In this document: positions 44,601 to 59,909 of the stretch, piece after piece
Layout: each line of letters starts with the position of its first letter
Position numbering within the stretch: position 1 is the stretch's first letter
Source: Xanthobacter autotrophicus
GTDB lineage: Bacteria > Pseudomonadota > Alphaproteobacteria > Rhizobiales > Xanthobacteraceae
Length of the DNA stretch: 64,000 nucleotides
Assembly (NCBI RefSeq): GCF_029991245.1
Contig: NZ_JAIVFO010000001.1
Location: 62,001 to 126,000, forward strand
Reading direction: 5' to 3'
The notes under the pieces: generated by a model
The model's input: only the letters and a program-made list of their open reading frames with translations
Told to the model about the DNA's origin: nothing
Databases searched by the model: none
Translations under genes and position numbers: made by a program

Positions 44601-47496
44601 CATCGTGGCCCTCAAGGCCTTCGGTGACAGCGCCAGCGGCACCGCGGTGCTGGTGGAGACGGGCAAGAACAGCTCGATCACCGCGACCAGCGGCATCGGC
44701 ATCACCGCCGGCCAGGGCTTCGGCGACGGCAACGTGGTCGTCACCACCGGCGAGGGCAGCACCATCAATGCCGGCCTCGGCGGCATCGCGGCCCTGAAGC
44801 TCTTCGGCGACAGCGCCACCGTGGGCGGCGACGCCGTGACGGTGACGACCGGCAAGAACAGCTCGATCCTGACCTCCGGCGTCGGCATCACCGCCGGCCA
44901 GTCGTTCGGCGACGGCAACGTGGTGGTGACCACCGGCGAAGGCTCGACCATCGGCTCGAACCCCTTCGTCGACCCCTCGGCGCCGGTCTTCGCGGGCATC
45001 GTTGCCGGCAAGGCCTTCGGCGATGGCAACCTGACGACCACCACCGGCCTCAACAGCATCATCTTTGCCGCGACCAACGGCATCACCTCGGCCCATCTCT
45101 TCGGCACCGGCGACAACAGCGTCACCACCGGCGAGAATTCGGCCATCCTGGCCGGAAACGACGGCATCTACTCGACCTCCCTGTTCACGACCGGCGCCAC
45201 TTCGGTGACCACCGGCACCAACAGCCTGGTCTCTGCCGTTGACGATGGCATCGTCGCGGACAAGTTCGGCGGCTCGGGCGACCTGACGGTCACCATCGGT
45301 GCCACCAGCGCCGTGGTTGCCGGCGACGACGGCATCCAGGTGTCCAACCGCTCCTTCGGGACCGGCAACATCTTCGTGAACGTCCTCGGCGGCACCAACA
45401 TCAAGCCCACCGTGATCTCCGCGGATGACGACGCCATCCACGCCCACGGCTGGGACAATGTGGATGTCACCACCGGTTCGTATGTCCAGATCATCGGTGA
45501 CGCCAACAAGGGTGGGTCCGGCAACGCGATCCGCATCTCGGACGCGGACATCGCCACCGTGACCATCGGCACGAACAACGTCGTGTCCGGCTCGGGCCAG
45601 TCCTGGTCCAACGCCGTGATCTCGGTGCGCAGTGATGACGCGACCACCATCACGGTGGGCGCCGACTCGCTGGTGAGTTCCTGGGCCTACGCCAGCAACG
45701 GCGACATCGTCACCGCTGCCAGCGACATCGTGATCGACACCGACGGCGGTGCGACCCTCATCGAGAACTACGGCACCATCGTTGGTCGCGTCGGCCTGAC
45801 CCACAACGACGACGTGTTCAACAACTACAGCTCGAACACCTGGGTCACGGTCGGCAACAACTACTTCGGCGCCGGCTACGACCAGGTGAACAACCCCGGC
45901 CGCGTGGTCACCGCGCTCCAGGGCGCGGTCGCCGAGACCACCTCGTTCAACGACCTCGAGCTCTTCAACAACGGCGATGCCGCCTATCTCGGCGCCGGCC
46001 TGCTCGACCTTCGGGACGAAGTCCCCGGCCAGATCGCCTGGAACGGCGCCCGCGACGTGACCTACGTGAGCGGCGTGTTCAACGGTACCGGCAACAGCAC
46101 GGTGGGCCTCGACACCTTCGTCGGCGCCGCCGGCTCCACCTCGGACATCCTCCAGGTGGGCGGCCTCGACAAGGACGGCATCGCGATCGCCGGCCTCGTC
46201 ACCACCGGCCAGACCGCGCTGCTGATCAACGACGTCAACACCGGACCCGGCGCGTGGAACCTCGCGGGTATCAAGGTGGTGGACGTGGTCGATCCGGCCG
46301 GCGTGACCTACGGCAAGAACACCCCCGGCGAGACCCCGAGCTTCGTGATCTCCTCGGCTTCGACGAACTACAGCGCCAAGTTCGGCGGTGTGATCGACAA
46401 GGGCCTGTTCTTCTACGACCTCCTCGCCATCGGCAACGACCAGTACCTGATCGGCATGCCCGACCAGGAAGCGTACGAACTGCCGAAGCTGGTCACCGGC
46501 GCCCAGGCCATCTGGCATGAGACCACCGGCGTGTGGCTCGACCGCCAGGCCGACCTGCGCACCTACCTGCAGGGCACGACCACGACCCTCGTCACCAAGG
46601 AAGGCGTGAAGACCGTCAACGGTGCTCCGGGCTCCGTCACCCCCGGCATCTGGGGCAAGGTGGTCGGCAGCTGGGGCTCGCGGGACGCTTCCGACAACTA
46701 CAGCGCCTACGGCCGCTCCTACGGCTTCGACACCGGCTACAACCAGAACATCTACGGGTTCATGGCCGGCGCCGATTTCGGCAAGGAAGGCGTGTTCGGC
46801 CCGAACGACGCAGTGGTGTTCGGTGTCCTCGGCGGCTACCTGACCTCCGACCTCTCGTTCGACTCTTCGCAGACCTCGGCGAACTACTCGGGCGGCACGG
46901 TTGGCGTCTACGCCACCTACATCAACAACAACTGGTTCCTCGACGCCCTGTTCAAGGCTGACTTCCTGTCCATGGACTACGACGCCCCCACCCTCGTCGG
47001 GTCGGGCTACTTCGGTCAGTCCACGGATGCCAAGAACCTCGGCTTCGTGGTCGATACCGGCTACCGCTTCTACAAGTGGGGCGCGTCCGGCTTCGTGGAT
47101 GGCCTTGCCACCCTCAGCTACGTGAACACCAACATTTCGAACCTCACCCTCGTGCCCGGCACGCTGGTGGACTTCGGAAACAACGACAGCCTGCGGGGCA
47201 GCATCGGTGCCCGGGTCGGAGCCAATGCCTACGACGCGGCCACCTACCGGGTCGAGGCCAGCCTCACCGGTCGCCTGTGGTACGAGTTCCTCGGCGACAA
47301 TGCGGTCACGATCTACAACCCCGGCCTGCCCTTCAACACCGTCGATAATTTCGACGGGCTGTTCGGCGAAGTGGGCGTGGGCCTGAACTTCTTCGCCAAG
47401 GACAGCGGCTGGAACGGCTTCACCAATGCCGACGTCAAGTTCGGCGACAGCTACGTCGCCGGCAGCGCGAAGGGTGGCGTTCGCTACCAGTGGTGA
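41650..47496 (+). CDS. Giant autotransporter (type V secretion) with repetitive passenger
   Basis: A 1948-residue outer-membrane protein. An extended signal peptide occupies about residues 1-50 (basic RQRRTR, hydrophobic stretch, AAEA cleavage). The passenger, to about residue 1640, is Gly/Asn/Thr/Ala-rich with repeats built on NGI-x-G-(N/D)-I/V-x-V-x-x-F type beta-helix rungs; from about residue 990 units end in GDGNVVVTTGEGSTI. Residues about 1660-1948 form the autotransporter barrel, starting VTPGIWGKVVGSWGSRD and ending in the aromatic terminal residue of GGVRYQW. The passenger has almost no cysteine (one near the start), as expected for secretion. Likely an adhesin or biofilm factor. A 1972-codon open frame on the other strand is a composition shadow. 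Confidence 0.93.
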   Translation: MANTGGTIHSGVSGEVSLRQRRTRAFLLSTALVPALAVGALLVPTAAEAACNSSGLFTVTVNCTGNDPNGFVLLDVRPVTVNAGAGVTVQSAPFGNALTIGTAASITSNNTAATFNGFIDGIAYGAIGDVTINNFSGASNGLFGDGISAGSLLGDVSVQNFTGSASGNDNGIELSAPAGDINLSGFGGRATGTNGDGIAATSIIGNIKADNFVAASGAGPYIVGGTNGLDLQTTIGNVSVQNFGSSAQGGQNGINVSTDVGNINLSGFTGSAQGTANDGIQAQTSSGNITANNFGANALVTGGVNGLDLSATVAGNINVNNFAGTAQGTLGAGIVAQTAQGDINVNSFSGSATGGLAGIALTTDNGDINVTSFSGTATGTGLVSSGLFASADENITVSTTGAASLSGGLAGVNVLQGGDDVNVTLGGTTQATGGPLGFGVLVNSAYQATGNVDVNTAGGTSVTGGLAGIAINKTSVGGDVTVNTNGTVTGTSGLGVGIGVNTVIDQTTTTSITTAGTTTGGFGGIFASTESVFGNATSTIDTHGQVSGGAGVAITGIATAQGGGKNATSTVEQYGVINNSAAGILAVASANNVATTDVLVDNTIDVTGFGVMALASGKTGSVTVETTTDGAITAGGAGIIAGAAGDDFTVDVTTNAKIDAGSQGIIAGLVGDNGTVTVTNNATITSGGSGIIAFNTGGDTTVNVEEKISAGGLFGAAAFAGGTGDAVLNVNAVIDPPVIGGAAVTFGSGLAQANVNANVQATGIGILAGNVGTGVVDVNINAGGTIQSDGIGVSTFKIGDGATTIDVDAAIGGLTGTATGGDGIFALGIGNTPITIKTTANGTINAGDDGISVAHLGSGDIAITTEAVITAGDEGIQVLSGALAPSSVTVTNNAAINATDNGIFILKGGDGDVTVNANANITSTNGNGIEANALFGTGNVTVAQKDATTITAADIGIIASKSFGTGDVKVTIGEDSTITAGSGGIVALKAFGDSASGTAVLVETGKNSSITATSGIGITAGQGFGDGNVVVTTGEGSTINAGLGGIAALKLFGDSATVGGDAVTVTTGKNSSILTSGVGITAGQSFGDGNVVVTTGEGSTIGSNPFVDPSAPVFAGIVAGKAFGDGNLTTTTGLNSIIFAATNGITSAHLFGTGDNSVTTGENSAILAGNDGIYSTSLFTTGATSVTTGTNSLVSAVDDGIVADKFGGSGDLTVTIGATSAVVAGDDGIQVSNRSFGTGNIFVNVLGGTNIKPTVISADDDAIHAHGWDNVDVTTGSYVQIIGDANKGGSGNAIRISDADIATVTIGTNNVVSGSGQSWSNAVISVRSDDATTITVGADSLVSSWAYASNGDIVTAASDIVIDTDGGATLIENYGTIVGRVGLTHNDDVFNNYSSNTWVTVGNNYFGAGYDQVNNPGRVVTALQGAVAETTSFNDLELFNNGDAAYLGAGLLDLRDEVPGQIAWNGARDVTYVSGVFNGTGNSTVGLDTFVGAAGSTSDILQVGGLDKDGIAIAGLVTTGQTALLINDVNTGPGAWNLAGIKVVDVVDPAGVTYGKNTPGETPSFVISSASTNYSAKFGGVIDKGLFFYDLLAIGNDQYLIGMPDQEAYELPKLVTGAQAIWHETTGVWLDRQADLRTYLQGTTTTLVTKEGVKTVNGAPGSVTPGIWGKVVGSWGSRDASDNYSAYGRSYGFDTGYNQNIYGFMAGADFGKEGVFGPNDAVVFGVLGGYLTSDLSFDSSQTSANYSGGTVGVYATYINNNWFLDALFKADFLSMDYDAPTLVGSGYFGQSTDAKNLGFVVDTGYRFYKWGASGFVDGLATLSYVNTNISNLTLVPGTLVDFGNNDSLRGSIGARVGANAYDAATYRVEASLTGRLWYEFLGDNAVTIYNPGLPFNTVDNFDGLFGEVGVGLNFFAKDSGWNGFTNADVKFGDSYVAGSAKGGVRYQW

Positions 47497-47548: not shown

Positions 47549-47775
47549 CTCACTCAGCGGCAGGCGGATCGGCTCGACCCCCTTCCGGTTAAGGCACCAA
47601 AGCTTTTTCGAGTGAAGCGGATCCTGGTTCGCCCGAAAACGCGTCAACACGAGTGGATCAAAGCGGTGTGGTTCGACCTGCTCGCGACCGATGGGTTCCG
47701 TCTGTCGCAGCCGAACCACTAGGATCTGAAGCGATTGCCGTGAGCCGCTGCAAACGGAAGGCGCTTTCATGCGAG

Positions 47776-48399
47776 ATGTCGGAGACGTCCGTGACCACTT
47801 CCCAATCGTTTTCCCTCCGTTTCGGTGCGGTGCTCGGCGCCGGCGCCGCTGTGATCCTGGCGGTCACCTGGCTGGTGGCCATGTCGGCAGCCGAAGCCCA
47901 GCAGCGCCCGGCCCAGCCGGCGGCTCCCGCTGCTCCCGCGGCTCCGACCGGACCGGTGAAGACCGAGACCCAACGCTTCGATAGCTGGATCCTGACCTGT
48001 CAGGAGCTTCCCCCGGCGGCCGGCGCCAAGACCTCCAAGAGGACCTGCTGGGCCACCATGCGCGTCACTGACGCCAAGTCGAACCGCGTCGTACTGGTCC
48101 TCAAGGTCGGCCGCGACGGCAAGGATGTGCCCACCGTCGCCGTCACCACCCCCACCGGTGTGATCGTGCGCGAAGGCGTCGACATCACGCTTGGACAGAA
48201 CGTGCGGCGCCTCGCCTTCCAGACCTGCGGCCAGGCCGAGTGCGAGGCTTCCATCGCCTATGACCAGGCCTTCGCCAACGATCTCGCCGCCGCCAAGGAG
48301 GCGACAGTGGGCTTCTATCTGGCGGACGGTCGGCAGGTGAACGTCAAGGTGGCCATCGGCGGCATCGACAAGGTTCTCGCCACCCTGAAGAAGGGCTGA
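47776..48399 (+). CDS. Invasion-associated locus B (IalB) family periplasmic protein
   Basis: A 207-residue exported protein. A signal peptide with a hydrophobic run (FGAVLGAGAAVILAVTWLVAM) ends in SAAEAQQ; a Pro/Ala-rich linker follows, then the IalB domain with the typical FDSWILTCQ and paired cysteines (TCQ...RTCWATM and QTCGQAECEASIAYD). Such proteins are common in Hyphomicrobiales, are periplasmic and are of poorly defined function; the founder in Bartonella is linked to erythrocyte invasion. ATG 47776 gives a normal signal peptide. An earlier in-frame start at 47653 would add 41 implausible residues. Confidence 0.88.
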   Translation: MSETSVTTSQSFSLRFGAVLGAGAAVILAVTWLVAMSAAEAQQRPAQPAAPAAPAAPTGPVKTETQRFDSWILTCQELPPAAGAKTSKRTCWATMRVTDAKSNRVVLVLKVGRDGKDVPTVAVTTPTGVIVREGVDITLGQNVRRLAFQTCGQAECEASIAYDQAFANDLAAAKEATVGFYLADGRQVNVKVAIGGIDKVLATLKKG

Positions 48400-49397: not shown

Positions 49398-49676
49398 CTA
49401 TATCCCCACCCCAGGCGGGGCGACGCGTGCGAGCGAGGCGGTTTTCGGATCGTAAGTGTAGCCGGTGATCGTCCCGTCCCTGATTCTCTCCATCGCTTCA
49501 TCGACGATGAACAGCGGAACAAGGAACCACTCGCGCGGCACCACCGGCTGGCCGAACCTGTCCTTGATCTCGACGTCGAGGCGGGCGGCGCCGAAGATGC
49601 GGTGGATCAGGTTCTCAAGCCGGGTCCGGTTGATGTTGTACAATTCATAGGTCGCGACGATCTCGACGTCAGCCAT
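49398..49676 (-). pseudogene. C-terminal fragment of a GIY-YIG (T5orf172/MUG113-like) nuclease-family protein
   Basis: A 92-residue open stretch (ATYELYNINRTRLENLIHR, DRFGQPVVPREWFLVPL, DEAMERIRDGTITGYTYDP) resembles the C-terminal half of mobile-element GIY-YIG/T5orf172 proteins. The GIY-YIG half is absent, because the sequence upstream becomes the integrase fragment. I therefore read it as the remains of a gene truncated by the deletion that removed the first island. The family call rests on recollection of the conserved pattern and is moderate. Confidence 0.45.
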
Positions 49677-49706
49677 GAGGAAGGTCGGATCGAGCCGTGC
49701 ATTGGC

Positions 49707-49870
49707 GATCCGATGGCGAGGAGCTTCTCCTTGCCCTCAATCCGGTACTTCAGCCGCCAGAGACGCGAGCCGGTGGGATTCATCAGGAGATAGAGACCAC
49801 CGCCGACCGCCAGCTTATAAGGCTTGTCGCCAGCCTTCGCCGCGCGGATGGCCGTGTCGGTCAGGGGCAT
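49707..49870 (-). pseudogene. N-terminal fragment of a P4-type integrase
   Basis: From ATG 49870 the frame encodes MPLTDTAIRAAKAGDKPYKL and about 33 further residues nearly identical to the start of the intact integrase at 58251-59444, then breaks at base 49713 into unrelated sequence. Only the arm-DNA-binding N-terminus remains; the catalytic domain is lost. It is oriented like the intact gene and sits next to a second copy of the tRNA end. Confidence 0.85.
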
Positions 49871-50038
49871 TGGGGGCCGCCCTCAGTGGGCGTACGTTTC
49901 CGACAACCCCAAATTTGCCGGCTGCCAACGGATATCCCCAGACACTCCCGGAGCCTTTCGGACAGGAGAATTAAGCGTCTGTAAGGGTTTTTGGAGCTTT
50001 TTGCACCGACCCGGAAGGGTGAATGGTGCCAGGAGAGG
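49713..50038. repeat. Direct repeat of the integrase start and attachment region (second copy 59287-59628)
   Basis: This stretch of about 326 bases is highly similar to 59287-59628, covering the integrase N-terminus, the upstream region and the 3' end of tRNA-Leu. The left copy lacks about 12-14 bases that contain one of the GATACCCCC elements and one C of the tRNA end. It shows two related islands inserted at the same tRNA. Confidence 0.88.
50023..50038. other. Left attachment site of the intact island (tRNA-Leu 3'-end duplicate)
   Basis: TGGTGCC-AGGAGAGG repeats the 3' end of the tRNA-Leu gene (59611-59627) with one C missing. It marks the left boundary (att) of the 9.6-kb island, and equally the former right boundary of the decayed island to its left. 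Confidence 0.75.
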
Positions 50039-50054
50039 CAACGAATAATTATAT

Positions 50055-50119
50055 TAACTATCTGATATAAAATAAAGTAATCTTCTGACGAATTTTAGAT
50101 ACCCCCAAATATACCCCCA
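50055..50119. repeat. Island left-end repeat, copy B
   Basis: 65-base counterpart of 49233-49297, here at the inner left end of the intact island. It ends with GATACCCCC-AAATA-TACCCCCA (50098-50119). Probably an integrase or excisionase arm-binding region. Confidence 0.7.
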
Positions 50120-50160
50120 ATTTGGCGGACTACCCCTCCACTGCCCTGCGCGCCTGTCGA

Positions 50161-51252
50161 TCATACCCCCTTATCCCATCCCGGAAACAGCTCCTTCAGT
50201 CGCTCCACCGTATGGCGCCATTTCGGGGTGCGGGGGGCGCAGACGGTGTTCTGGTTGCCGAACATGCCGGCCTCGTTCACTGCCTGAGACAAGGGCCGGG
50301 TCGCGAGCCATTCCATAGGCACGAAATATTCGCACCGCTCCGGGTCGTCGGCGACAGTGCGGTAATGGCCCTTCATCACCTCCAGCGCCGGGCGCTCGAC
50401 GCCGCTCTGGTCCGTCACGGTGAAGTTGGAGGCCGGGACAGAGCTGCCGCGCGCTCGGCCGACGCCGACAAAACCGTAGCCGGGCGCCTTCACCCACACC
50501 AGATCGCCATCCTTCAGCAGCTTGAGTGTGCCCGTATACCAGGAGCCGCCGCCCGCGCTGATGAAGCCGTAGCGGCGGGCGTCTTCCCAATCGCGTTCGC
50601 CATCGTGGCCGAAGCTGGCATAGAATTCGCCGTTCCACGGCTCCTTTTCGCCGGAGGCGCTGCTGCTCGACGCAGCCACCTGCGTCTCGACGGGATCGAG
50701 CAGCCACGCGCGGCTCAGCAATTGGCCGGCATCGGTCTCGAACACCTGAAAGCAGAGCACATTGATCGGAATGTCGCGGCGGTTGAGATAGCCGACGATG
50801 CGCTCGCTGGCAGCGTCCAGCTCGGATGCGACGATCACGATCTGGTGGCTCTGGTTGAGCGTGTCGGGATCCAGCTTCTGGCCGAAGCGGCGGGCGAAGG
50901 CCGCGTCGAGGCTGTCGCCACCGGAGAAGCGGGCATAGATGCGATTGAGGTCCTGCGCCTCCAGCGCCTCTGCCCAGGTGGCATAATCGAGAGCCTGCGC
51001 CACCACTTCGCGCGGGGTCTTGCCGCGCTTCAGCTCGATCAGGATCAGCGTGCCGTCGGGAGCAAGGGCGAGGAGGTCGATGCGGCCGGAAAAGCCGGTG
51101 TCCTCCTGCCGGCCGATCATCATCCATTGCCGGGAGAGGATATCCGGCGCGGCGACGATCATGTCTTCCAGCAGCGCCTCACTCGGCAGGCTCGCCTCGC
51201 GCAGCGGAGCCGGCTTTGCGCCGACACGCCAGAGACTGTGATGGATAGGCAT
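50161..51252 (-). CDS. NucS/DUF91-type endonuclease-domain protein
   Basis: A 363-residue protein. Residues about 25-140 have a PD-(D/E)xK nuclease core: D59 in GRIDLLALAPDG, E73 and K75 in LILIELKRGK, and a QALDY segment near 86-90, as in NucS/DUF91 and RecB-like nucleases. The second half (from about residue 205) is a separate domain with GSWYTGTLKLLKDGDLVWVKAPGYGFVGVGR in the middle, which looks like a small PUA/EVE-type beta-barrel. AGGAG 6 bases before ATG 51252 supports the start. It follows the type IIG gene by 46 bases and probably belongs to the same defence module. Confidence 0.75.
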   Translation of the reverse strand: MPIHHSLWRVGAKPAPLREASLPSEALLEDMIVAAPDILSRQWMMIGRQEDTGFSGRIDLLALAPDGTLILIELKRGKTPREVVAQALDYATWAEALEAQDLNRIYARFSGGDSLDAAFARRFGQKLDPDTLNQSHQIVIVASELDAASERIVGYLNRRDIPINVLCFQVFETDAGQLLSRAWLLDPVETQVAASSSSASGEKEPWNGEFYASFGHDGERDWEDARRYGFISAGGGSWYTGTLKLLKDGDLVWVKAPGYGFVGVGRARGSSVPASNFTVTDQSGVERPALEVMKGHYRTVADDPERCEYFVPMEWLATRPLSQAVNEAGMFGNQNTVCAPRTPKWRHTVERLKELFPGWDKGV

Positions 51253-51298
51253 GAGGCTCCTCTCAGGCGAAAGTACTACCCTTTCTCTAACGAAGTAA

Positions 51299-54200
51299 TT
51301 ATTCTATTTCCACGTCCGGCTGCCCTGCCATGAGCGCATTTATCCAGGCCAACGTCAGATCACGGCTGCGATATTGACCGAATTTTGCCATCTCCTCCCG
51401 CTCCAAGATAGGGAACGTAGAGAAAATATATCGGATATCGTCGCGGCTTTGCGCTGGGGCAGCGGGATCAAACACACCGTAGAGGACGAAATAAAGCGCA
51501 TCGAGCTTGGCGCGCAGCTTGAGACGGCGGTTCTCGTCCCACATGAAGGGGGGCAGCACGACGCCTGACGCATCCACATGGCCCATGTCGCGCGCAAAGG
51601 GCGCCATGTCGTGGGCGGTATAGGTTAATTCCAGTACCACCTCGCGCACGATGGCGGCGGCGGTTTTCGGGCCGAAGGCGCGAGCATAGCCGGCAGGTGG
51701 AACGATGGGTAGCTGCTCGACGATAAACCAATTGAGATGCTGGCCCTGTACCTTCTGGCGGGCAATGAAATCGAAGGGCACGGTATTGAGATTTGCAGTC
51801 AGCAGCGGGAGCCGGGCCGGGTCCTTCTTCTCCGCATCAGGATCGAGTTCGATCAGCGGCAGAGTATTGCCGGCCGCGCCTGAGGGAATAACCGCAGCAA
51901 TCATCGAACGCACATTCGTTGGCGATGTTACGTCCTTGAAACCAAGCGCATAAGGCGCTTGCGCCAGCCCGACAGGCGGCTGAATCCAGAATTGTGGATC
52001 GGCAAGCCAATCGGGATCGACGTGCTGTTCGTCCGTCGCGGGAAGTGGCTGGGCCGGGCGATTAAGGTTGCCGCGATTGACCACCACCGACGCCGCGCGG
52101 TGATCGAACGCTTGCACCATCTTGCCCTCGTAAAGCGGCACCCATTCTCCAGTTGCCGTCTGGAAACGGTTAGCTCCAATAGGCCAGGCGCCTTCTTTCT
52201 CCTCCAGTTCGTCGCGCGTGCGGAACAAGTGGCTATCGTTGGTCATATCGAACATGCGCACATAGCGCACAGGCCATGCCGCCACAGGCGCCCCGCCCGA
52301 GCGATCCACCAGTACCGGCAGGCGGGCATATATAGCGGTAGTAAGTGCCATATCTCGGCGGGTCCGGAAAATCGGCGCCGTGCCAGTATTGGGATTTACG
52401 CGAGCAAAATCCTCCGCCGCTACAGAGAAAGCGCGGTCCGGGTCGTGGATCTCCGCCACCGACTGAAGAAAAAAGCCGCACCTTGCATCTACAAATTTCC
52501 GTCCAGGGCTTGCTATCAACGCGCAAAATTTGAACCGGCCATCCACATCTGGAAAAAAGGGCGTAAGACGGTAGCGCGTCCGGCGGTTCTCGAAATCAAA
52601 GAGCGTCTTCAGATGACCGCCCGTGGCAATTTTGCTGAAGAAGGCACTAGCCGAAAGATCGGACGCGATGCCGCTAGGTGTCAGAAGCCCCACCATGCCG
52701 TCCAGCTTCACGAGTGCATGGGCGCGCTCAACAAACAGGCTGTAGAGATTCAGATCGCCGCGGCTAAGCAGCGGATAATGCCCCGTTGTGCGTGCCAGGC
52801 GCAAAGTGTCGGCCGCACGGGCGTCGGCGTGGAGGAAGGCGTCGTGGAGCGGATCACCCTCAGCCTTCAGAGCCGCGATCATGCGCGCACGGTCGGAAGC
52901 CCGTTGCGCCAACGCAATCTCCGGCTTACGAGCGGCGAACCATTCCACTTGCTGGAGTTTGATGCGGTCCCAAGGCGGGTTCCCTACCACCGCGTCAAAG
53001 CCGCCCTCGCGCTCCCTTTTTTCCCAGTTTGACCACACTCCGGGAAAGGCAATCTGCCAGTTCAAGAAGCGCTCCTCGGCGATTAGCCCGCGGGCGCGCT
53101 CCAGAATGGCAGAAAAGCGTTCTCCCTCCTCGCGTCGCGCGCGATCGAGTAGCGGCTGCGCCCGACCAGTAGCTATATCTATGGGATTGCCGAACTGGCC
53201 GTCGAGCCACGCCCGCACCGCCGCCTTGTCTTCGCGCGCCTTCAGGTCCAGCCAGTCAAGTGCGTGGAGCAAGGAAACGAAGGCATCGAGCGGGGCAACC
53301 TGTGCCTTAATGCCGAAGAAGGTAGCGGCGGACTGGTGGGCCTCGGCAATTTCAACGTCTACCGCGCGCTCGATCAGTTGCATGGCGGCGGCAGCTGACT
53401 GGGCCTCCTTCAATTCCTTGACATAGAGCAGTTCACCGCCGCCCCAGGCCGCCGCCTTGTCGATGGCGTCGCGCACCCACAAACCGAATAAACTATCGCC
53501 TGCGCGCAGATGATGGTCGACGAAGGAGAGAGGCGCACCCACGGTGAAGGTGTGGAGCCAAAGGGCAACCTTCGCCAATTCCACCGCCATGGGGTTCTTG
53601 TCCACCCCATAGATGCAGCGCTTAAGGACCATGCGCCGGACGATATGCCGGTCGTCGAGCTGGGCTTCGTCGATTGCCCATTTCGCCGCGCGGGCGTTAC
53701 GCAGAATGGTAGTGCGAATATCCTCGATCTTTTCCGCCAGCGGCGAAACATAGCCAAGCTCCCGTCCCTGCGCTGCCGCCTCAGCCATGGCATCGAGCAC
53801 ATGGTCGGCCAACATATCCACGAGGCTCACCAGGAAGTGACCGGAGCCCATGGCGGGGTCGCAGATGCGCAGCCGCAGGATGGCCTCGGCCGGGTCCACC
53901 TCACGCAGTTCGCGGCGGCGCACCGCTTCGGATTCTTCGGGGTCGAGTTCAGCAAGCGCCGCATGGAACGCGCCAAGCCGCTCCGAAATGAGTGGCTCCA
54001 GTGTCTCGGCGAGAATCAGCCCCACGAGGTCGTCCGGCGTGTAATAACTTCCGCTATTCTTGCGGGCAAAAATATTTGGGCGCACCGAGAGCGTGCCGTC
54101 ATCGCCACGGACCAGTTCGAACTCCAGCAATCGCTCATAGATTGAGCCAAGCTGCTGCACCGATAGATCGCGATAATTGATATATCGCCTTTCTCCGGTG

Positions 54201-55453
54201 GAACGCTCAAAGGAAAGGGCATCGAGGGCGCCAGCCATGACGGCATCGCCGATGCGCACCCGCGCGAGAAGCGGCGTCCCGTCGGTGGCGAACAGGCCGC
54301 CGTTGTAGGGCGGAATCCCGACGCTCGTATCGCCCCGGTCGATGATGCGCGCCAGGTCCGCCACATGCCCGAAAATACGCTCCGCGCTGGTGGAGAAGGT
54401 GTCACCATTCGACACACGCCTGCCTACGTCGAGCCGCAAGTTGCGCAAGGCATAGTCATCATAGCGCTTGTCGTTCACCGGCAGCAGCGCACGGTCTTCA
54501 GCGTAGAGCAGGAACAGGAGCCGATAGAGCAGCACCAACGCCGTATCGCGAACCTCGGCTAAGGGTGCTTCGGGGGCCGCCCCGGCGATGGCGCTGGCAA
54601 GGCCGGGGAAGACGATGGTAAACACCAGTTCCGACAGGCTAGATGCGACCTTCTCCTCATAGAAGGCCGCATCGGCGCGGGCGCGCTCGTGGAAGGTTCG
54701 CCGATCGACGCCTGTGCCGAGGAACGCTTCACGCGAAAACAGGACGGCAAACACGCGCAGCCAATGCTCGCGGTCCGCGTCGCCAGCGAAGAGGTCAGCA
54801 CCGTCGAGGGCGAGAACACGAGATAGGTCGATTTCCAGAAACTGTTCCGACACCGAACGCGCACCAGCCCAATAGAGCCGCCACCGCGAGCCGTTGGTAA
54901 GGATACCCCAACGCAGACGGCCACCGGTCAAGTCGTCGATGCGCCGCAAATATCGCAACATCTGAGTTGATGGTGCAGTGGTCTCATCCTTACCCGATGC
55001 GCGGTCAAGGGGCCGAGCCCACCGCTTGCACTCGACGACGCCGAGGCCATGGGCATAGCGTCGCCATTGCTCGGCCTGTGCGTTGGCCGCCACCTTCGAT
55101 GCGGCGTCGGCGAACAACAGCCCGTCCGGTACATCATCGCGGCCGCCGGCGGTCAGATTCTGCTGGCGTAGACTTTCGGACCAGCCAAGCGCCCCGAGCA
55201 CGGGCCAAATGAAGTCATCTTCGGTCTGGCTTTCGTTGGTTCGGGTGCTCTTGGGAAACGGAGCAGCGATTTCGGCCAAACGGGCGCGAAGGCTGGCAGC
55301 GTCGACGGAGCGATAGGCTTCAGTATGCCTGATCGCGTCCGCGAGGTAGTCGGTCGTGAACAGCGAGCCAGAAATGAACGAAGCCGAATCGGACAAGGTT
55401 TCCCCCTGCATCCTCCGCTCAATACCCCCAGAGCCCCCCCCGGCAAAGCGCAT
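51299..55453 (-). CDS. Type IIG-like restriction-modification protein (Eco57I-type methylase domain)
   Basis: About 1384 residues. The N-terminal part has PD at residues 109-110 (DDVPDGLLFAD) and VVECKRWA near 140, a PD-(D/E)xK-type nuclease pattern. The centre has N6-adenine methylase motif I DPAMGSGHFLV (near 535) and motif IV NPPWDRIKL (near 823). The C-terminal 500 residues are a likely target-recognition region. Single-chain enzymes of this type cut and methylate DNA. Related PglX (BREX) and DISARM methylases lack the nuclease part. The start is ambiguous: ATG 55453, ATG 55411 or TTG 55483. It lies 44-86 bases after the recombinase stop, depending on start, and precedes the nuclease gene. 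Confidence 0.82.
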   Translation of the reverse strand: MRFAGGGSGGIERRMQGETLSDSASFISGSLFTTDYLADAIRHTEAYRSVDAASLRARLAEIAAPFPKSTRTNESQTEDDFIWPVLGALGWSESLRQQNLTAGGRDDVPDGLLFADAASKVAANAQAEQWRRYAHGLGVVECKRWARPLDRASGKDETTAPSTQMLRYLRRIDDLTGGRLRWGILTNGSRWRLYWAGARSVSEQFLEIDLSRVLALDGADLFAGDADREHWLRVFAVLFSREAFLGTGVDRRTFHERARADAAFYEEKVASSLSELVFTIVFPGLASAIAGAAPEAPLAEVRDTALVLLYRLLFLLYAEDRALLPVNDKRYDDYALRNLRLDVGRRVSNGDTFSTSAERIFGHVADLARIIDRGDTSVGIPPYNGGLFATDGTPLLARVRIGDAVMAGALDALSFERSTGERRYINYRDLSVQQLGSIYERLLEFELVRGDDGTLSVRPNIFARKNSGSYYTPDDLVGLILAETLEPLISERLGAFHAALAELDPEESEAVRRRELREVDPAEAILRLRICDPAMGSGHFLVSLVDMLADHVLDAMAEAAAQGRELGYVSPLAEKIEDIRTTILRNARAAKWAIDEAQLDDRHIVRRMVLKRCIYGVDKNPMAVELAKVALWLHTFTVGAPLSFVDHHLRAGDSLFGLWVRDAIDKAAAWGGGELLYVKELKEAQSAAAAMQLIERAVDVEIAEAHQSAATFFGIKAQVAPLDAFVSLLHALDWLDLKAREDKAAVRAWLDGQFGNPIDIATGRAQPLLDRARREEGERFSAILERARGLIAEERFLNWQIAFPGVWSNWEKREREGGFDAVVGNPPWDRIKLQQVEWFAARKPEIALAQRASDRARMIAALKAEGDPLHDAFLHADARAADTLRLARTTGHYPLLSRGDLNLYSLFVERAHALVKLDGMVGLLTPSGIASDLSASAFFSKIATGGHLKTLFDFENRRTRYRLTPFFPDVDGRFKFCALIASPGRKFVDARCGFFLQSVAEIHDPDRAFSVAAEDFARVNPNTGTAPIFRTRRDMALTTAIYARLPVLVDRSGGAPVAAWPVRYVRMFDMTNDSHLFRTRDELEEKEGAWPIGANRFQTATGEWVPLYEGKMVQAFDHRAASVVVNRGNLNRPAQPLPATDEQHVDPDWLADPQFWIQPPVGLAQAPYALGFKDVTSPTNVRSMIAAVIPSGAAGNTLPLIELDPDAEKKDPARLPLLTANLNTVPFDFIARQKVQGQHLNWFIVEQLPIVPPAGYARAFGPKTAAAIVREVVLELTYTAHDMAPFARDMGHVDASGVVLPPFMWDENRRLKLRAKLDALYFVLYGVFDPAAPAQSRDDIRYIFSTFPILEREEMAKFGQYRSRDLTLAWINALMAGQPDVEIE

Positions 55454-55496
55454 TATCGGTCCGGTGCCTCCAACATTTCTCAATCAAGGCCTGAAC

Positions 55497-56606
55497 CTAA
55501 GCGACCAAATCGCTACCTTTCCGTCGGGCGAGCAAGGCGCCAATCTGCGCCAATGTATCATCGTCTCCGCCGCAGGTTTGCGCGCCCATCCGCCCCATTA
55601 CCTCGCCCTGCCGGTGGGGATCGATTCGGCCATATGAGGTGAGCGTGGTGGCGATGTTCTCGTGGCCGAGGTTCTGGCTCCAGGCCTTCAGCTCTTCCGG
55701 GGTTCGGCACATGGTTTGTGCCAGATGGCCGAGAGTATGGCGGAAGGAGTGGGGCGGGAAATAGGGCAGGCCCGCGCGCTCGAAGGCCCTGCGAAAAATC
55801 TCCCGCACGGGCGAGGCATTGCTCCAGTGTTCCCGCTCGACACCCACCGGCGCGAAGCCGCCATCGTCGCCAAGGCCCATGCGGGTGCGGGGAAAGAGCG
55901 GGTCGGCCGGGCCGAACAGGTGGACCTTGCGCAATTCCTCGATCCAGGCGAGCGCGATGGCGGCGAGGTCGTCGCCCACAGGGAAGAAATAGGTGACGAT
56001 GGCCTTCGCGAACTTGGTCTCGACGCTGTTCGGGTCCTGCGCCACCACCGGGGTCTTGCCGGACGTGTCCACATGGCCAAGGGACAGTGAAACCAGCGCC
56101 CGGTCGCGGATGCCGGTCAGGAGCGTGAAGGCGACAAGGGCGCGATTGCGCCGGTCAATCACGGTCTCCCCCGGCATCGCGGCGACGGTGGCGCGCACCT
56201 GATCGAGGCTGGGGAAAGGGCGGAGCTTGGCCGCCTTGGCGCGAGCCGCATCCTTGTTCGAGGGCGACAGATAGTCGATGTCCGCCATGTGGACCTTGGA
56301 CTTGAAGCCCGGCTGCCACGACAGCCAGGTGAAGAAGTCTTTCAACGCGGTCAGCGTCGTCGCCTGCGTCGAGGCGCTCAGGGCCTCGCCGGTGCGCATA
56401 CCCTCGGTCTCGGCCAGCCGCGCCTTGAAGCCCATGGCCTGCTCGCGCCGGAAGGTCTTGAAGTCCTTTGCGGCCGTGTACGCCTCATAGCGGGCGAGGG
56501 CCTTGCGCACGGCATCGAGCGTCGCCTCGCTCTTGCCCTTGGCTTCCTTGAGATAGCGAATATAGTCCCTCTTTAGGCGCTCATTGGACGGGTTCAATCT
56601 CGTCAT
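55497..56606 (-). CDS. Tyrosine recombinase (phage-integrase family)
   Basis: A 369-residue recombinase. Residues about 15-110 are a SAM-like DNA-binding domain (YIRYLKEAKGKSEATLDAVR). The catalytic residues are in TGIRDRALVSLSL (Arg), HSFRHTLGHLAQ (HxxR), LGHENIATTLTSYGRID (His and the nucleophile Tyr). GAGGAGG about 11 bases before ATG 56606 is a strong ribosome site, and the gene starts 4 bases after the HTH gene stop. It is distinct from the island integrase next to the tRNA and sits directly upstream of the R-M gene, so it may move or invert the module, or be left from an older element. Confidence 0.9.
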   Translation of the reverse strand: MTRLNPSNERLKRDYIRYLKEAKGKSEATLDAVRKALARYEAYTAAKDFKTFRREQAMGFKARLAETEGMRTGEALSASTQATTLTALKDFFTWLSWQPGFKSKVHMADIDYLSPSNKDAARAKAAKLRPFPSLDQVRATVAAMPGETVIDRRNRALVAFTLLTGIRDRALVSLSLGHVDTSGKTPVVAQDPNSVETKFAKAIVTYFFPVGDDLAAIALAWIEELRKVHLFGPADPLFPRTRMGLGDDGGFAPVGVEREHWSNASPVREIFRRAFERAGLPYFPPHSFRHTLGHLAQTMCRTPEELKAWSQNLGHENIATTLTSYGRIDPHRQGEVMGRMGAQTCGGDDDTLAQIGALLARRKGSDLVA

Positions 56607-56610
56607 CGCG

Positions 56611-57093
56611 TCACACCTCCTCGAAAGCACGGTTTGCACTGGGGTCGGAACAACCCTTCATTCGTTCCGGGGCCAGCGTGTGCAGATCGATCAGGCAGCT
56701 GAGGGCTGGCAGGTCGGCCCGGCGCACCGTACGGTGCATGGGCGTTCCGCAGCAGGCGCAGAGGGCGGCGAGGCGAGCGACCTTCTCATTGCGGAAAGAC
56801 AGGTCCGCCGTCCCGCCCCACGGCGCGCGCGGCACCCGGCAGCGGAAGCAATAGAACTCGCCGGGGCGGCATGTCTGGCGCCGATTCTCCCGCCGCTTGG
56901 CAAGGAAGGCCTTCAGGGCCGTGCCGTGGATCAGCAGGGGGCGCCGGTCGTCGATCGCCGCCAGCCCCTCCTTCAGCCACCGCCGCACGGTGTTACGGTG
57001 GATGCCGAGGAGCTTGGCGATCTCGGCCACCTCATAGGTGGTGCCCTGCTTCACCCTCTGCGGCGAGCACCGGCGCGGCTTGCGGGCGCGCAT
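56611..57093 (-). CDS. Helix-turn-helix protein with zinc-ribbon-like cysteines
   Basis: A 160-residue protein. The N-terminal YEVAEIAKLLGIHRNTVRRWLKEG is a MerR/excisionase-type helix-turn-helix followed by a typical IHGTALKAFLAKRR segment. The middle has CFRC and CACC pairs about 35 residues apart, a likely zinc ribbon. It starts 5 bases after the AlpA stop, with GAAGGGG before ATG 57093, and ends 4 bases before the recombinase. Its position suggests a recombination directionality factor or accessory factor for the recombinase. Confidence 0.78.
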   Translation of the reverse strand: MRARKPRRCSPQRVKQGTTYEVAEIAKLLGIHRNTVRRWLKEGLAAIDDRRPLLIHGTALKAFLAKRRENRRQTCRPGEFYCFRCRVPRAPWGGTADLSFRNEKVARLAALCACCGTPMHRTVRRADLPALSCLIDLHTLAPERMKGCSDPSANRAFEEV

Positions 57094-57098
57094 CCCCT

Positions 57099-57311
57099 TC
57101 ACCCCCGCCGCCCCGTGGCGATGCGATCGGCAATCCAGCCGTCGATCTCGGCCTCGATCCAGGCGACGCACCGCTCGGTGAGGGCCACGGGCTGGGGGAA
57201 ACGTCCCTCCCGCATATAGGCGTAGATGGTGCTACGGCTGAGGCAGGTGCGGGCCTTCACGGCCTCAAGGCGCAGGAGAGAGGGGCGGGTCGTCGTGTCG
57301 TTCGCGCTCAT
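57099..57311 (-). CDS. AlpA-family excisionase/regulator
   Basis: A 70-residue protein with the AlpA winged-helix pattern: LLRLEAVKARTCLSRSTIYAYMREGRFPQPV and a C-terminal RCVAWIEAEIDGWIADRIA. AlpA proteins act as transcriptional activators or excision factors for P4-like integrases. The start may be ATG 57311 or ATG 57320. It heads the HTH-recombinase transcription unit. Confidence 0.88.
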   Translation of the reverse strand: MSANDTTTRPSLLRLEAVKARTCLSRSTIYAYMREGRFPQPVALTERCVAWIEAEIDGWIADRIATGRRG

Positions 57312-57442
57312 CGGTTCCATCCGGGTCCGAGTGGATATGGACGGAAGGATGGGCGCGACGCGGACGGTAAAATAGCTGGGCGAATTTGAAAAAACGTAGG
57401 CTGATCAGCCCATTAATCGGGCCGAGAGATACCCCAAGTCAC

Positions 57443-58138
57443 CTAGAAAGGTATCTCGTCGTCAAGGTCGGAACGGAACGAACCAGAGTAGGGGTTTTCC
57501 TGAACCAGGGGGCCGGTTTGACCAAACCCACCTGAAGGTTCTGGCGCATCCTCCGGGGTAGCCGGAGCGCCACCGTTGGGCCGCCAGTTCGCGACCTTGG
57601 CAATATCCTCGATGCCGGTGGCGTTCGGCTTGCCCTTGTGGAGAAGCCCGTATTCGGCGGCGTGCTCTTCAAGCCACTCCTGCAACGCCTGCTTCACTGA
57701 TTTGCCCCGCAGGCGCTTCGGGTCGGCGGTCACAGCACGCCATGCAGCATTCGCAGCGGCGAGCTTCGGGGCATAGAATGGACCGCGCCGATCATCGAAA
57801 TCACAAGCAGGTACAGGCTTAATTCTAAAGAACTGATCGAAATTTCCCGCAGCTGCATACCAATGAATTATATGCTTACTGTGAATTAAACTTTCATCAA
57901 AATCTATATCGTTATTGAATGAGCTGTTGTGATAGACCTCTCGCATCAGCGGAATTTCGTTATCAATAACTGCGTGTTGCAAAGCGTGAATGACTGGCAG
58001 TGTGATGCGCTGAATCGCCAAGGGCCACCGCCCAAATGCCGTGCCATGGAGGAGCGCGGGATCATAGCCGTGGCTCAGAAGAGCTGCTTGATAGACGGTG
58101 AACTGCTTTACGAGGCGCCAACGCTCCAGATCGGACAT
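57443..58138 (-). CDS. Island protein of unknown function with an SSB-like acidic C-terminal tail
   Basis: A 231-residue protein I do not recognise. Residues 1-170 are a globular, mixed-charge region (MSDLERWRLVKQFTVYQAAL at the start) without an OB-fold signature. From about residue 180 there is a Gly/Pro-rich linker, and the last residues are DLDDEIPF. This closely copies the conserved acidic tip of bacterial single-stranded-DNA-binding protein, which recruits repair and replication enzymes. ATG 58138 gives the best N-terminus. It sits between the integrase and AlpA genes, the usual place for excision or replication-associated proteins. Confidence 0.7.
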   Translation of the reverse strand: MSDLERWRLVKQFTVYQAALLSHGYDPALLHGTAFGRWPLAIQRITLPVIHALQHAVIDNEIPLMREVYHNSSFNNDIDFDESLIHSKHIIHWYAAAGNFDQFFRIKPVPACDFDDRRGPFYAPKLAAANAAWRAVTADPKRLRGKSVKQALQEWLEEHAAEYGLLHKGKPNATGIEDIAKVANWRPNGGAPATPEDAPEPSGGFGQTGPLVQENPYSGSFRSDLDDEIPF

Positions 58139-58250
58139 AGCCGTACCGCCAGTTGATTCGCTGGCATAGTTTCCGTCTAACGCGCGGCAAGTCCAACGCT
58201 GTCCAGCGGCACGATGCACAACCCGGATCAATCAGAGCTGCGGATTGGAT

Positions 58251-59444
58251 TCAGTCCGCAGCCTCCCGCAGCCCGTCCAGATGATCCGCCCACCATGCCA
58301 TCATCCGCACCCGCTCCTCCCAATGCTCGCCCCGCAGATAGGCGCGGCGCACTTCATTGTTCTCGGCATGGGCGAGCTGGCGCTCGATGGCATCCGGATT
58401 CCACAGGCCGCTTTCGTTGAGGAGCGTCGAGGCGGAGGCGCGGAACCCGTGGGCGGTGGCGATGTCCGGACCGAAGCCCAGGCGGCGCAGGGCAAAGTTC
58501 AGGGTATTCTCGCTGATCGGCTTCTTCGCCGCGCCGATGCAGGGAAAGGCGAAATCCTCCTCGGCCGTGACCGCATAAAGGTCGCGCAGAATGGCTACCG
58601 CCTGCGGCGGAAGCGGGATGCGGTGGGGCCGGCGCATTTTCATGCGTTCGGCAGGGATGGACCAAACCGCCTTGTCGAGGTCGAACTCGGTCCAGCGCGC
58701 GGCGCGCAGCTCGCCGGGGCGAGGAAACAGCACCGGCATAAGTCTCAGCGCCGCGCGGGTCGCCGGCTGGCCCTGATAGCCGTGGATTGCCTTCAGGAGC
58801 TTGCCCAGTTCGGCCGCGGTGGTGACTGCGGATCGGTGCTGAACCTTCGGCGTCGTCAGGGCGCCGCGCAGGGCGAAGGTCGGGTCGTTCTCGATTCGGG
58901 CGGTGGCGATGGCGTAGCGAAAGATCGAGCCGATGACGGACCGCATCCGCCTCGCCGTCTCATGGTGGCCCTTGGCCTCGATCTCCCGCAGGGCCTCCAG
59001 CACGTCGGCGGAGCTGACTGCGCCGATATCCCGGTCGCCGAAATGGGGGTATGAGAAGCCTAGCAGCCAACGCCGCTTCGCCAGCGTGATATCGGCAAGC
59101 CCCTCACGGGTCAGCTTGGCGAGGTGCTCCTCTGCCACCGCGCGGAAGGTGTTGACTGGCGCTGCCTTCGCCTCCTCGCGTGCCCGCTTCTTGAGGGCCG
59201 AGGGGTCGCCACCATCGACGATCGCCTTCTTGGCGTCATCGCGCCGCTCCCGGGCCTTCGCGAGCGACACCTCAGGATATGGCCCAATGGCGAGGAGCTT
59301 CTCCTTGCCCTCAATCCGGTACTTCAGCCGCCAGAGACGCGAGCCGGTAGGATTCACCAGGAGATAGAGGCCACCGCCGTCCGCCAGCTTATAAGGCTTG
59401 TCGCCGGCCTTCGCCGCGCGGATGGCCGTATCGGTCAGGGGCAT
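58251..59444 (-). CDS. P4-type tyrosine integrase of the island
   Basis: A 397-residue integrase. The N-terminal arm-binding (DUF4102) domain has LTDTAIRAAKAGDKPYKLAD and GGGLYLLVNPTGSRLW. The central SAM-like domain spans about residues 100-200. Catalytic residues are the Arg in LFPRPGELRAARW, HGFR in ATAHGFRASASTLL, the His in QLAHAENNEV and the Tyr in RRAYLRGEHWEERV. It points away from the tRNA-Leu it targets and lies 166 bases from it, the standard arrangement for tRNA-targeting islands. Confidence 0.94.
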   Translation of the reverse strand: MPLTDTAIRAAKAGDKPYKLADGGGLYLLVNPTGSRLWRLKYRIEGKEKLLAIGPYPEVSLAKARERRDDAKKAIVDGGDPSALKKRAREEAKAAPVNTFRAVAEEHLAKLTREGLADITLAKRRWLLGFSYPHFGDRDIGAVSSADVLEALREIEAKGHHETARRMRSVIGSIFRYAIATARIENDPTFALRGALTTPKVQHRSAVTTAAELGKLLKAIHGYQGQPATRAALRLMPVLFPRPGELRAARWTEFDLDKAVWSIPAERMKMRRPHRIPLPPQAVAILRDLYAVTAEEDFAFPCIGAAKKPISENTLNFALRRLGFGPDIATAHGFRASASTLLNESGLWNPDAIERQLAHAENNEVRRAYLRGEHWEERVRMMAWWADHLDGLREAAD

Positions 59445-59476
59445 TGGGGGGGCGCCCTCAGTGGGGGTACGTTTCC

Positions 59477-59498
59477 GATACCCCCAAAAGTACCCCCA
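59477..59498. repeat. GATACCCCC arm-type element, right copy
   Basis: GATACCCCC-AAAAG-TACCCCCA lies between the integrase start and the tRNA. Copies with the same 9+5+8 layout are at 49276-49297 and 50098-50119. The truncated left integrase copy has lost this element. Confidence 0.7.
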
Positions 59499-59610
59499 AA
59501 TTTGCCGGCTGCCAACGGATACCCCCAGACACTCCCGGAGCCTCTCGGACCGGAGAATAGAGCGTCTATAAGGTTTTTTGGAGCTTTTTGCACCGACCCG
59601 GAAGGGTGAA

Positions 59611-59697
59611 TGGTGCCCAGGAGAGGACTCGAACCTCCACGCCCTTGCGAGCGCCAGCACCTGAAGCTGGTGCGTCTACCAATTCCGCCACCTGGGC
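59611..59697 (-). tRNA. tRNA-Leu (anticodon CAG)
   Basis: The minus strand reads GCCCAGG at the 5' end, a D-arm GGCGGAATTGGTAGACG, an anticodon stem CCAGC/GCTGG with loop TTCAGGT (anticodon CAG), a long class II variable arm, T-arm GGTTCGAGTCC and acceptor CCTGGGC-A followed by an encoded CCA. It is 87 nt with CCA (84 without). The 3' end is the attachment site of the adjacent island, which restores it intact. Confidence 0.97.
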
Positions 59698-59909
59698 CCC
59701 GGACGGCGCGTGGCCGTCAGGCAGGGCCTTCACATAAGGGGGGGCGCGGGGCGTGTCAATAACACCCGCGCACCCCGCGACCGAAAGGTGTGAACAAGCG
59801 CGTCGGCCAGCCCCGGAGCCCTTCCGCATCCCGGTGGCGCGCCCGGCGCCGACCGGCCAGCATCAGCGACCCGGCCGGTGTCCCGCCCCTTGTCCCGCGC
59901 CCCTTGGCG

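Follow-up and report, generated by a model that had tools for sequence, protein, structure and literature searches.

A type IIG restriction enzyme and a predicted two-domain PDC-S11 nuclease side by side on an integrative island of Xanthobacter autotrophicus

Background

Behind a recombinase gene of Xanthobacter autotrophicus lie, in one direction, the genes of a single-chain restriction-modification (R-M) enzyme and of a separate nuclease, and the question raised by this locus is whether the two constitute a dedicated two-component defence system, as the preliminary description of the DNA had proposed, or a looser association. The window, which is the whole stretch of 64,000 nucleotides that was analysed, was compared with other genomes of the genus, the class and the phylum, and the two gene families were surveyed separately for the company that they keep.

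Structure of the island

The two genes are carried by an island of about 9.6 kb in a tRNA-Leu (CAG) gene (59611..59697, minus strand), framed by a direct repeat of about 330 bp, of which the tRNA-side copy (59284..59626) extends 16 bp into the 3' end of the tRNA gene and the distal copy (49710..50038) contains a remnant of the 5' end of the integrase gene; its description as an integrative island was thus correct. All of the island genes are on the minus strand. The P4-type integrase ORF (58251..59660; Arm-DNA-bind_3, Phage_int_M and Phage_integrase domains) begins inside the tRNA gene, and therefore translation probably starts at the ATG near 59444 (residue 73), two residues before the start of the Arm domain at residue 75. 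It is followed by three further genes of the island backbone: an ORF of 262 amino acids (57443..58231) with no match in Pfam, NCBIfam, PADLOC or PHROGs at an E-value of 0.01, an excisionase-like helix-turn-helix gene (56611..57171; TIGR01764, 2.1e-7), and a XerC-like tyrosine recombinase of 380 amino acids (55497..56639; Phage_integrase, 3.3e-12). The cargo consists of the type IIG gene (51299..55483) and the gene of a 363-amino-acid nuclease (50161..51252), both intact and in the same direction as first reported, with a gap of 46 nucleotides (51253..51298) that places an AGGAG sequence resembling a ribosome-binding site before the nuclease ATG. A sigma-70-type scan of the minus strand from 49700 to 59800 found no promoter-like site, and no terminator-like site was found in the 46-nucleotide gap, which is compatible with a single transcript of the two genes but does not prove it.

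Beyond the distal repeat is a 92-amino-acid T5orf172/MUG113 remnant (49398-49676) that shares 93.5% identity with the C-terminal end of a 405-amino-acid protein of the same-genus genome G844, which suggests that an element of the G844 type once adjoined the island and that the remnant may be the trace of a second tandem element, mostly lost. Farther out are a repetitive protein of 1948 amino acids (41650-47496) that appears autotransporter-like by eye, with an antisense ORF nearly as long, and an IalB-family gene (47653-48399) located after it.

The type IIG enzyme

The type IIG ORF encodes 1394 amino acids from a TTG codon or 1370 from the ATG at 55411, both near the size of about 1384 first given, and the ATG is the more likely start because the alignment of most relatives begins near there. 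An Eco57I methylase domain (8.1e-20) supplies the DPxxGxG and NPPx motifs expected of an adenine methylase in the same chain as the nuclease; the ExK, DPAMGSG and NPPW motifs are invariant among seven aligned relatives, and E127 and K129 are invariant in 20 sequences. An AF2 model of the first 306 residues from ATG 55411 (pLDDT 86.1) is predicted to be a PD-(D/E)XK nuclease domain, with best structural matches to BpuSI (Z 9.9, rmsd 3.7, 148 residues aligned), HsdR (3h1t, Z 9.7) and DrdV (Z 8.7), on a scale where unrelated mitoribosomal chains reach Z 8.5. Foldseek gave no match for this model at E<=0.001 (3h1t 0.044, BpuSI 0.072). The enzyme resembles BpuSI and DrdV in joining this N-terminal nuclease fold to a methylase in one chain, but its sequence is too distant from theirs for the alignment, used as a profile, to match them or any other sequence in the PDB. 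Compared to the homolog in G850, a second genome of the genus, residues 51-450 are 92-98% identical and residues 951-1250 only 42-74% identical, as would be expected had the target-recognition region changed, and this points to a variable region of this kind at the C-terminus.

Among PADLOC models the best match is DrmMI (3.9e-82), followed by the best type IIG model (8.6e-56). Assignment to DISARM was rejected since none of the six other proteins scanned matches a drm model (drmA, drmB, drmC) at an E-value of 0.01, and BREX was rejected since the PglX score is 35.5 bits against a cut-off of 500 and none of the seven proteins scanned with PADLOC matches pglZ or brxC.

The nuclease

The nuclease matches the PADLOC candidate family PDC-S11 (PDLC04916) over its full length (4.2e-149), a family for which PADLOC supplies the candidate label alone. 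The family is large: at least 447 of 595 candidate stretches were confirmed. The window protein scores 22.2 bits with Pfam NucS_C, under the curated cut-off of 24, and NucS_C is found at E<=0.01 in 65 of 65 family members. The D...ELK catalytic motif is kept in all 79 stop-free relatives among the best 80 (63 by a scripted pattern, and 16 others read by eye as conservative variants), and W206, W222, F331 and N335 are invariant in 65 sequences.

An AF2 model made from 65 sequences (pLDDT 85.3, pTM 0.73) has two domains. Residues 24-179 are predicted to be a NucS-type PD-(D/E)XK domain by structural alignment with NucS (2vld_B, Z 12.5, rmsd 2.1, 108 residues aligned; next match Z 12.4). The catalytic fold and the D...ELK motif are thus shared with the mismatch endonuclease NucS/EndoMS, of which, however, only residues 126-233 align; the alignment begins at residue 24 of the model and residue 126 of NucS, leaving no room for the N-terminal domain of NucS/EndoMS. 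The C-terminal domain (residues 202-363, approximately) is predicted to have an EVE/YTH-type fold of the PUA superfamily, closest to VcaM4I (residues 208-363 with 6yex_A, Z 9.8, rmsd 3.4, 131 residues aligned), followed by PH1033 (Z 9.7), which we take to be an EVE protein, and YTHDF2 (Z 9.0); residues 207-357 align with 2hd9 at Z 9.7. Among the 50 matches listed, those to the C-terminal domain are VcaM4I, YTH domains and uncharacterised proteins such as PH1033 only. The YTH domains, which are adenine readers, come close to VcaM4I (Z 8-9), and this counts against fixing cytosine as the base that the domain would read; the model fits EVE or YTH. With Foldseek, matches at E<=0.001 were to NucS only and the putative reader domain had none at that level; 2eve was retrieved at E 4e-3 (probability 0.97), and the matches to the nuclease model also included DrmAB chains (7s9v_A, E 6e-3). 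The Pfam EVE model matches none of the 65 family members, so the sequence match that would mark a type IV endonuclease with an EVE reader was not found, and a PDB search with a sequence profile restricted to the C-terminal domain retrieved no EVE or YTH chain. The reader domain therefore rests on the predicted fold, because sequence methods do not reach EVE, and a fold in common would not prove a function for it.

The nearest reader fold is that of VcaM4I, in which a hydrophobic pocket receives the flipped 5mC or 5hmC (PMC7897488). Like the window nuclease, VcaM4I-type EVE-HNH endonucleases combine a PUA-superfamily reader and a nuclease in one chain, but their nuclease is HNH, whereas that of the window is predicted to be NucS-type, with a C-terminal reader that Pfam does not detect as EVE. 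Modification sensors can also stand at the C-terminal end, an example being the PvuRts1I family, where a PD-(D/E)XK domain is followed by SRA (PMC7897488); the order of nuclease first and sensor last is that of the window nuclease, and the likeness is one of architecture, the window protein having a predicted NucS-type nuclease and an EVE/YTH-like sensor in place of SRA. A search of the open-licence PMC literature found no account of PDC-S11 that mentions an EVE-like domain. The family was already listed by PADLOC; what is new here is its predicted domain architecture and its position behind R-M genes. A search of 50,697 phage records gave no match, which says nothing either way.

The island and the gene pair in the genus

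Among 14 genomes of the genus, including that of the window (G000), only G000 and G850 have the type IIG gene, and in both of them the nuclease gene is present too and adjacent to it on the island; G853 has only a distant match to the nuclease (30% identity). The pairing is thus real within the genus. The G850 island encodes a nuclease 95.6% identical, a type IIG enzyme 80% identical, a XerC-like recombinase 94% identical and a 262-amino-acid ORF product 51% identical to those of the window. Purifying selection acts on all three genes compared between the window and G850, with dS and dN/dS of 0.24 and 0.12 for the nuclease, 0.62 and 0.07 for the type IIG core, and 0.33 and 0.09 for the recombinase; the helix-turn-helix gene was left out of this comparison, its alignment being out of frame. 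Because dS is so unequal between the nuclease and the type IIG core, the two have no single common history, which argues that island genes may have been exchanged separately.

G844 has the same integrase, 262-amino-acid ORF (78% identical), helix-turn-helix gene and recombinase as the window with different cargo (L198:4683-12123): an MmeI-type IIG enzyme of 956 amino acids, a PDDEXK_4 nuclease that is PADLOC PDC-S26 and whose gene overlaps the MmeI-type gene by 4 nucleotides, a helicase-like gene and a T5orf172-domain gene. Therefore, an unrelated type IIG enzyme and an unrelated second nuclease are carried by the backbone of the window, and the recombinase, whose presence before the gene pair was reported correctly, belongs to this mobile backbone. 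G844 also has type I R-M genes (HsdM, HsdS, HsdR) between the tRNA gene and a second element (L195:8601-15277), which gives the tRNA-Leu site the look of a hotspot for defence genes.

The tRNA-Leu site was compared in six of the 13 other genomes of the genus. A DNA query from the tRNA end of the island matched in 41 of 41 relatives searched because the tRNA itself is conserved. The site in G846 is near-empty, with about 1.1 kb from the left flank to the tRNA gene and an integrase remnant between, versus about 11.2 kb in the window. In G853 and G849, island sequence is absent from the 2.8 and 2.3 kb, respectively, examined on that side, and in G843 about 0.2 kb of the end repeat remains of the island.

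Genomic neighbours of the two families

Outside the genus the two families are seldom found together. Of 385 genomes from the class, at least 19 have the nuclease and at least 34 the sporadically distributed type IIG enzyme (E<=0.001), and at least four have both (G000, G016, G261, G280), with the two genes adjacent in G000 only, among the candidates scored. A draw of 398 genomes from the phylum yielded only the type IIG enzyme of the window itself at E<=1e-150 among the top candidates scored. The window type IIG gene was found in none of the best 80 nuclease loci, nor the window nuclease in any of 31 other type IIG loci. The co-occurrence survey that the preliminary description had suggested as a check thus went against a dedicated system of these two genes, which was rejected for its failure outside the genus and for the finding that the nuclease is most often behind type I R-M genes.

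The latter finding comes from a scan of 84,980 species genomes, from which the best 80 loci in named genomes, near relatives at 58-76% identity, were taken with neighbouring genes represented by greedy ORF calls rather than curated genes. Co-directional hsd genes are upstream of the nuclease in 41 of the 80 (39 of 70 if the count is limited to loci with 3.5 kb or more of upstream sequence), L102 among the 41 having just an 80-amino-acid HsdR fragment, and HsdM or HsdR matches over 200 amino acids are found in 43 of the 80; for two loci, Pfam matches of representative genes bore out the hsd assignment. The abutting upstream ORF is often HsdS, and elsewhere a further gene stands between. Type ISP enzymes accompany the nuclease at L082 (1658 amino acids, directly downstream) and at L098 (on the opposite strand and divergent, from about 5.5 to 0.5 kb upstream), an order that speaks against a uniform slot 3' of R-M genes. 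Eco57I-class enzymes are upstream at L106, ending 459 bp before the nuclease, and at L096, where a helicase and the Eco57I-class enzyme are followed by an SMC-like gene that abuts the nuclease. At L090 the nuclease is beside type VI secretion genes.

ATPase genes stand between HsdS and the nuclease in L078 (AAA_21), L114, L129 and L135, in three of these with a partner of about 283 amino acids, which adds them to the accessory genes of this slot. SIR2-type genes are upstream of the nuclease in L093 (SIR2_2 by Pfam) and in L137 and L150 (by similarity), directly behind HsdS in the first two and with an extra ORF between in L150.

These surroundings bear on an alternative that is unlikely, namely that the island carries two independent defence genes and that a solitary nuclease came to lie beside the type IIG gene by an accident of cargo loading. 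A type I match over 200 amino acids is missing from 37 of the 80 loci, some of which have short flanks, so such genes need not be present beside the nuclease; the only two cases of adjacency to this type IIG gene, in the window and in G850, are accounted for by inheritance of a single island; and the unequal dS of the two genes agrees with independence. What disfavours it is the bias of orientation and distance behind hsd genes, as an upstream ORF ends within 60 nucleotides of the nuclease in 33 of 40 hsd-upstream loci (all of the 41 except L102) versus 10 of 40 other loci, together with the Eco57I-class enzymes upstream of the nuclease in L096 and L106.

The company of type I, type ISP and IIG-class enzymes, all of which make double-strand breaks, could also be that of a clean-up nuclease that degrades ends, gaps or branched DNA after R-M enzymes cut phage DNA, a role that would place it beside R-M genes of several types and that suits a NucS-type catalytic domain; this is improbable, however, as end processing needs no EVE/YTH-like domain and some members of the family have no recognised R-M genes beside them.

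The survey of type IIG relatives covered 31 other loci, including the truncated or contig-end copies L056, L057, L060 and L064, of which L057 and L064 are from one genome; L063, a broken copy, was left out. A control search with the same hsd references matched none of the 31. In 11 of them a co-directional gene abuts the type IIG stop (-17 to +56 nucleotides), and none was counted in the other 20; for this family, the statement that type IIG enzymes usually act alone was therefore too simple. The abutting genes are HEPN_LA2681 (L055), PDC-S14 (L061) and a PDC-S14 look-alike by eye that is cut by the contig end (L175), PLD just under the Pfam cut-off (L152) and the same followed by TIR (L156 and its near twin L183), HATPase just under the Pfam cut-off (L153), an unassigned protein of 262 amino acids (L155), SIR2 (L158), McrB-like then McrC (L176), and a broken GmrSD_N-like remnant under the Pfam cut-off (L181). 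Type IV kinds of gene thus occupy the slot in L176 and L181, but GmrSD_N is not limited to type IV enzymes, which weakens L181 as such a case, and further PADLOC models, SspE among them, match this remnant as well.

Left out of the 11 were L173 and L178, in which the abutting ORFs are artefacts by eye, and L062, a distant relative (34%) with a helicase-like gene of 1685 amino acids. A small gene of 149-155 amino acids is found downstream of the type IIG gene in G135, G236 and G261; in the first two it was rejected as resembling an antisense artefact by eye, and in G261 (gap 121) it has no Pfam or PADLOC match. On a Pannonibacter plasmid, a gene annotated as 7-cyano-7-deazaguanine synthase (L152:2766-4139) is located three genes upstream of the type IIG relative, and a link to DNA modification is possible.

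A model for the module

Since other genes abut the type IIG gene in 11 of 31 loci and the nuclease stands behind other R-M genes, the nuclease is best read as a portable accessory in a variable slot, and the pairing, although real in the genus, is not dedicated. The reading preferred here, with a probability of roughly 55%, is that the island carries a mobile two-tier restriction module composed of a type IIG enzyme and a type IV-like, modification-dependent nuclease. The type IIG enzyme would methylate adenines at its own site and cut DNA that lacks its own methyl mark. The nuclease would be a stand-alone modification-dependent enzyme, in which the C-terminal EVE/YTH-like domain may bind a modified base in flipped form (by analogy with VcaM4I, a modified cytosine is the most likely) and the N-terminal NucS-type domain would cut the DNA; the suggestion that a second nuclease might degrade differently modified DNA agrees with this predicted domain. 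Phages with bases modified to evade the type IIG enzyme would then meet the nuclease. The accessory would be portable and would mostly fill a variable slot on the 3' side of R-M operons, with type I operons as the commonest hosts. As the nuclease is 95.6% identical in G850 where type IIG residues 951-1250 are 42-74% identical, it need not follow the target site of the type IIG enzyme.

That the YTH-like domain reads adenine methylation, with a nuclease that guards the R-M system or kills mis-methylated cells by addiction or abortive infection, is very improbable: YTH adenine readers nearly equal VcaM4I as structural matches, and adenine-methylase domains are present in the partner systems scanned (L151, L127, L082, L096, L106 and the window), but the nuclease would have to spare the methylated sites of its own partner, and the type IIG specificity region has changed in G850 while the nuclease hardly has.

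Implications

A wider proposal, put at slightly below an even chance, is that PDC-S11 is an undescribed type IV family, a NucS-type nuclease with an EVE/YTH-like reader, that is exchangeable beside adenine-methylating R-M systems, mostly directly behind type I, here and in a few loci behind the IIG class and next to some of type ISP, and that the 3' end of R-M operons is a general slot for cargo, which would let a single operon act on phage DNA with and without modified bases. DarTG2 in a type I system (PMC12255303) is an example of a defence gene embedded as an accessory within an R-M operon or at its end, as in the window; the window differs from that case in that the gene is behind a single-gene type IIG enzyme and the type IV-like accessory is also found with other R-M types. 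A study of Zymomonas (PMC8432527) was considered and found unrelated to the PDC-S11 family.

If the proposed reading of the nuclease is right, a large family with a candidate label would acquire a function open to testing, and the position immediately after an R-M gene would be worth searching for accessory defences. Embedded defences are reportedly the subject of a 2024 preprint by Payne et al. Phages escape restriction by modifying their bases, and an operon that also encodes a second enzyme able to recognise modified bases would deny them this way out.
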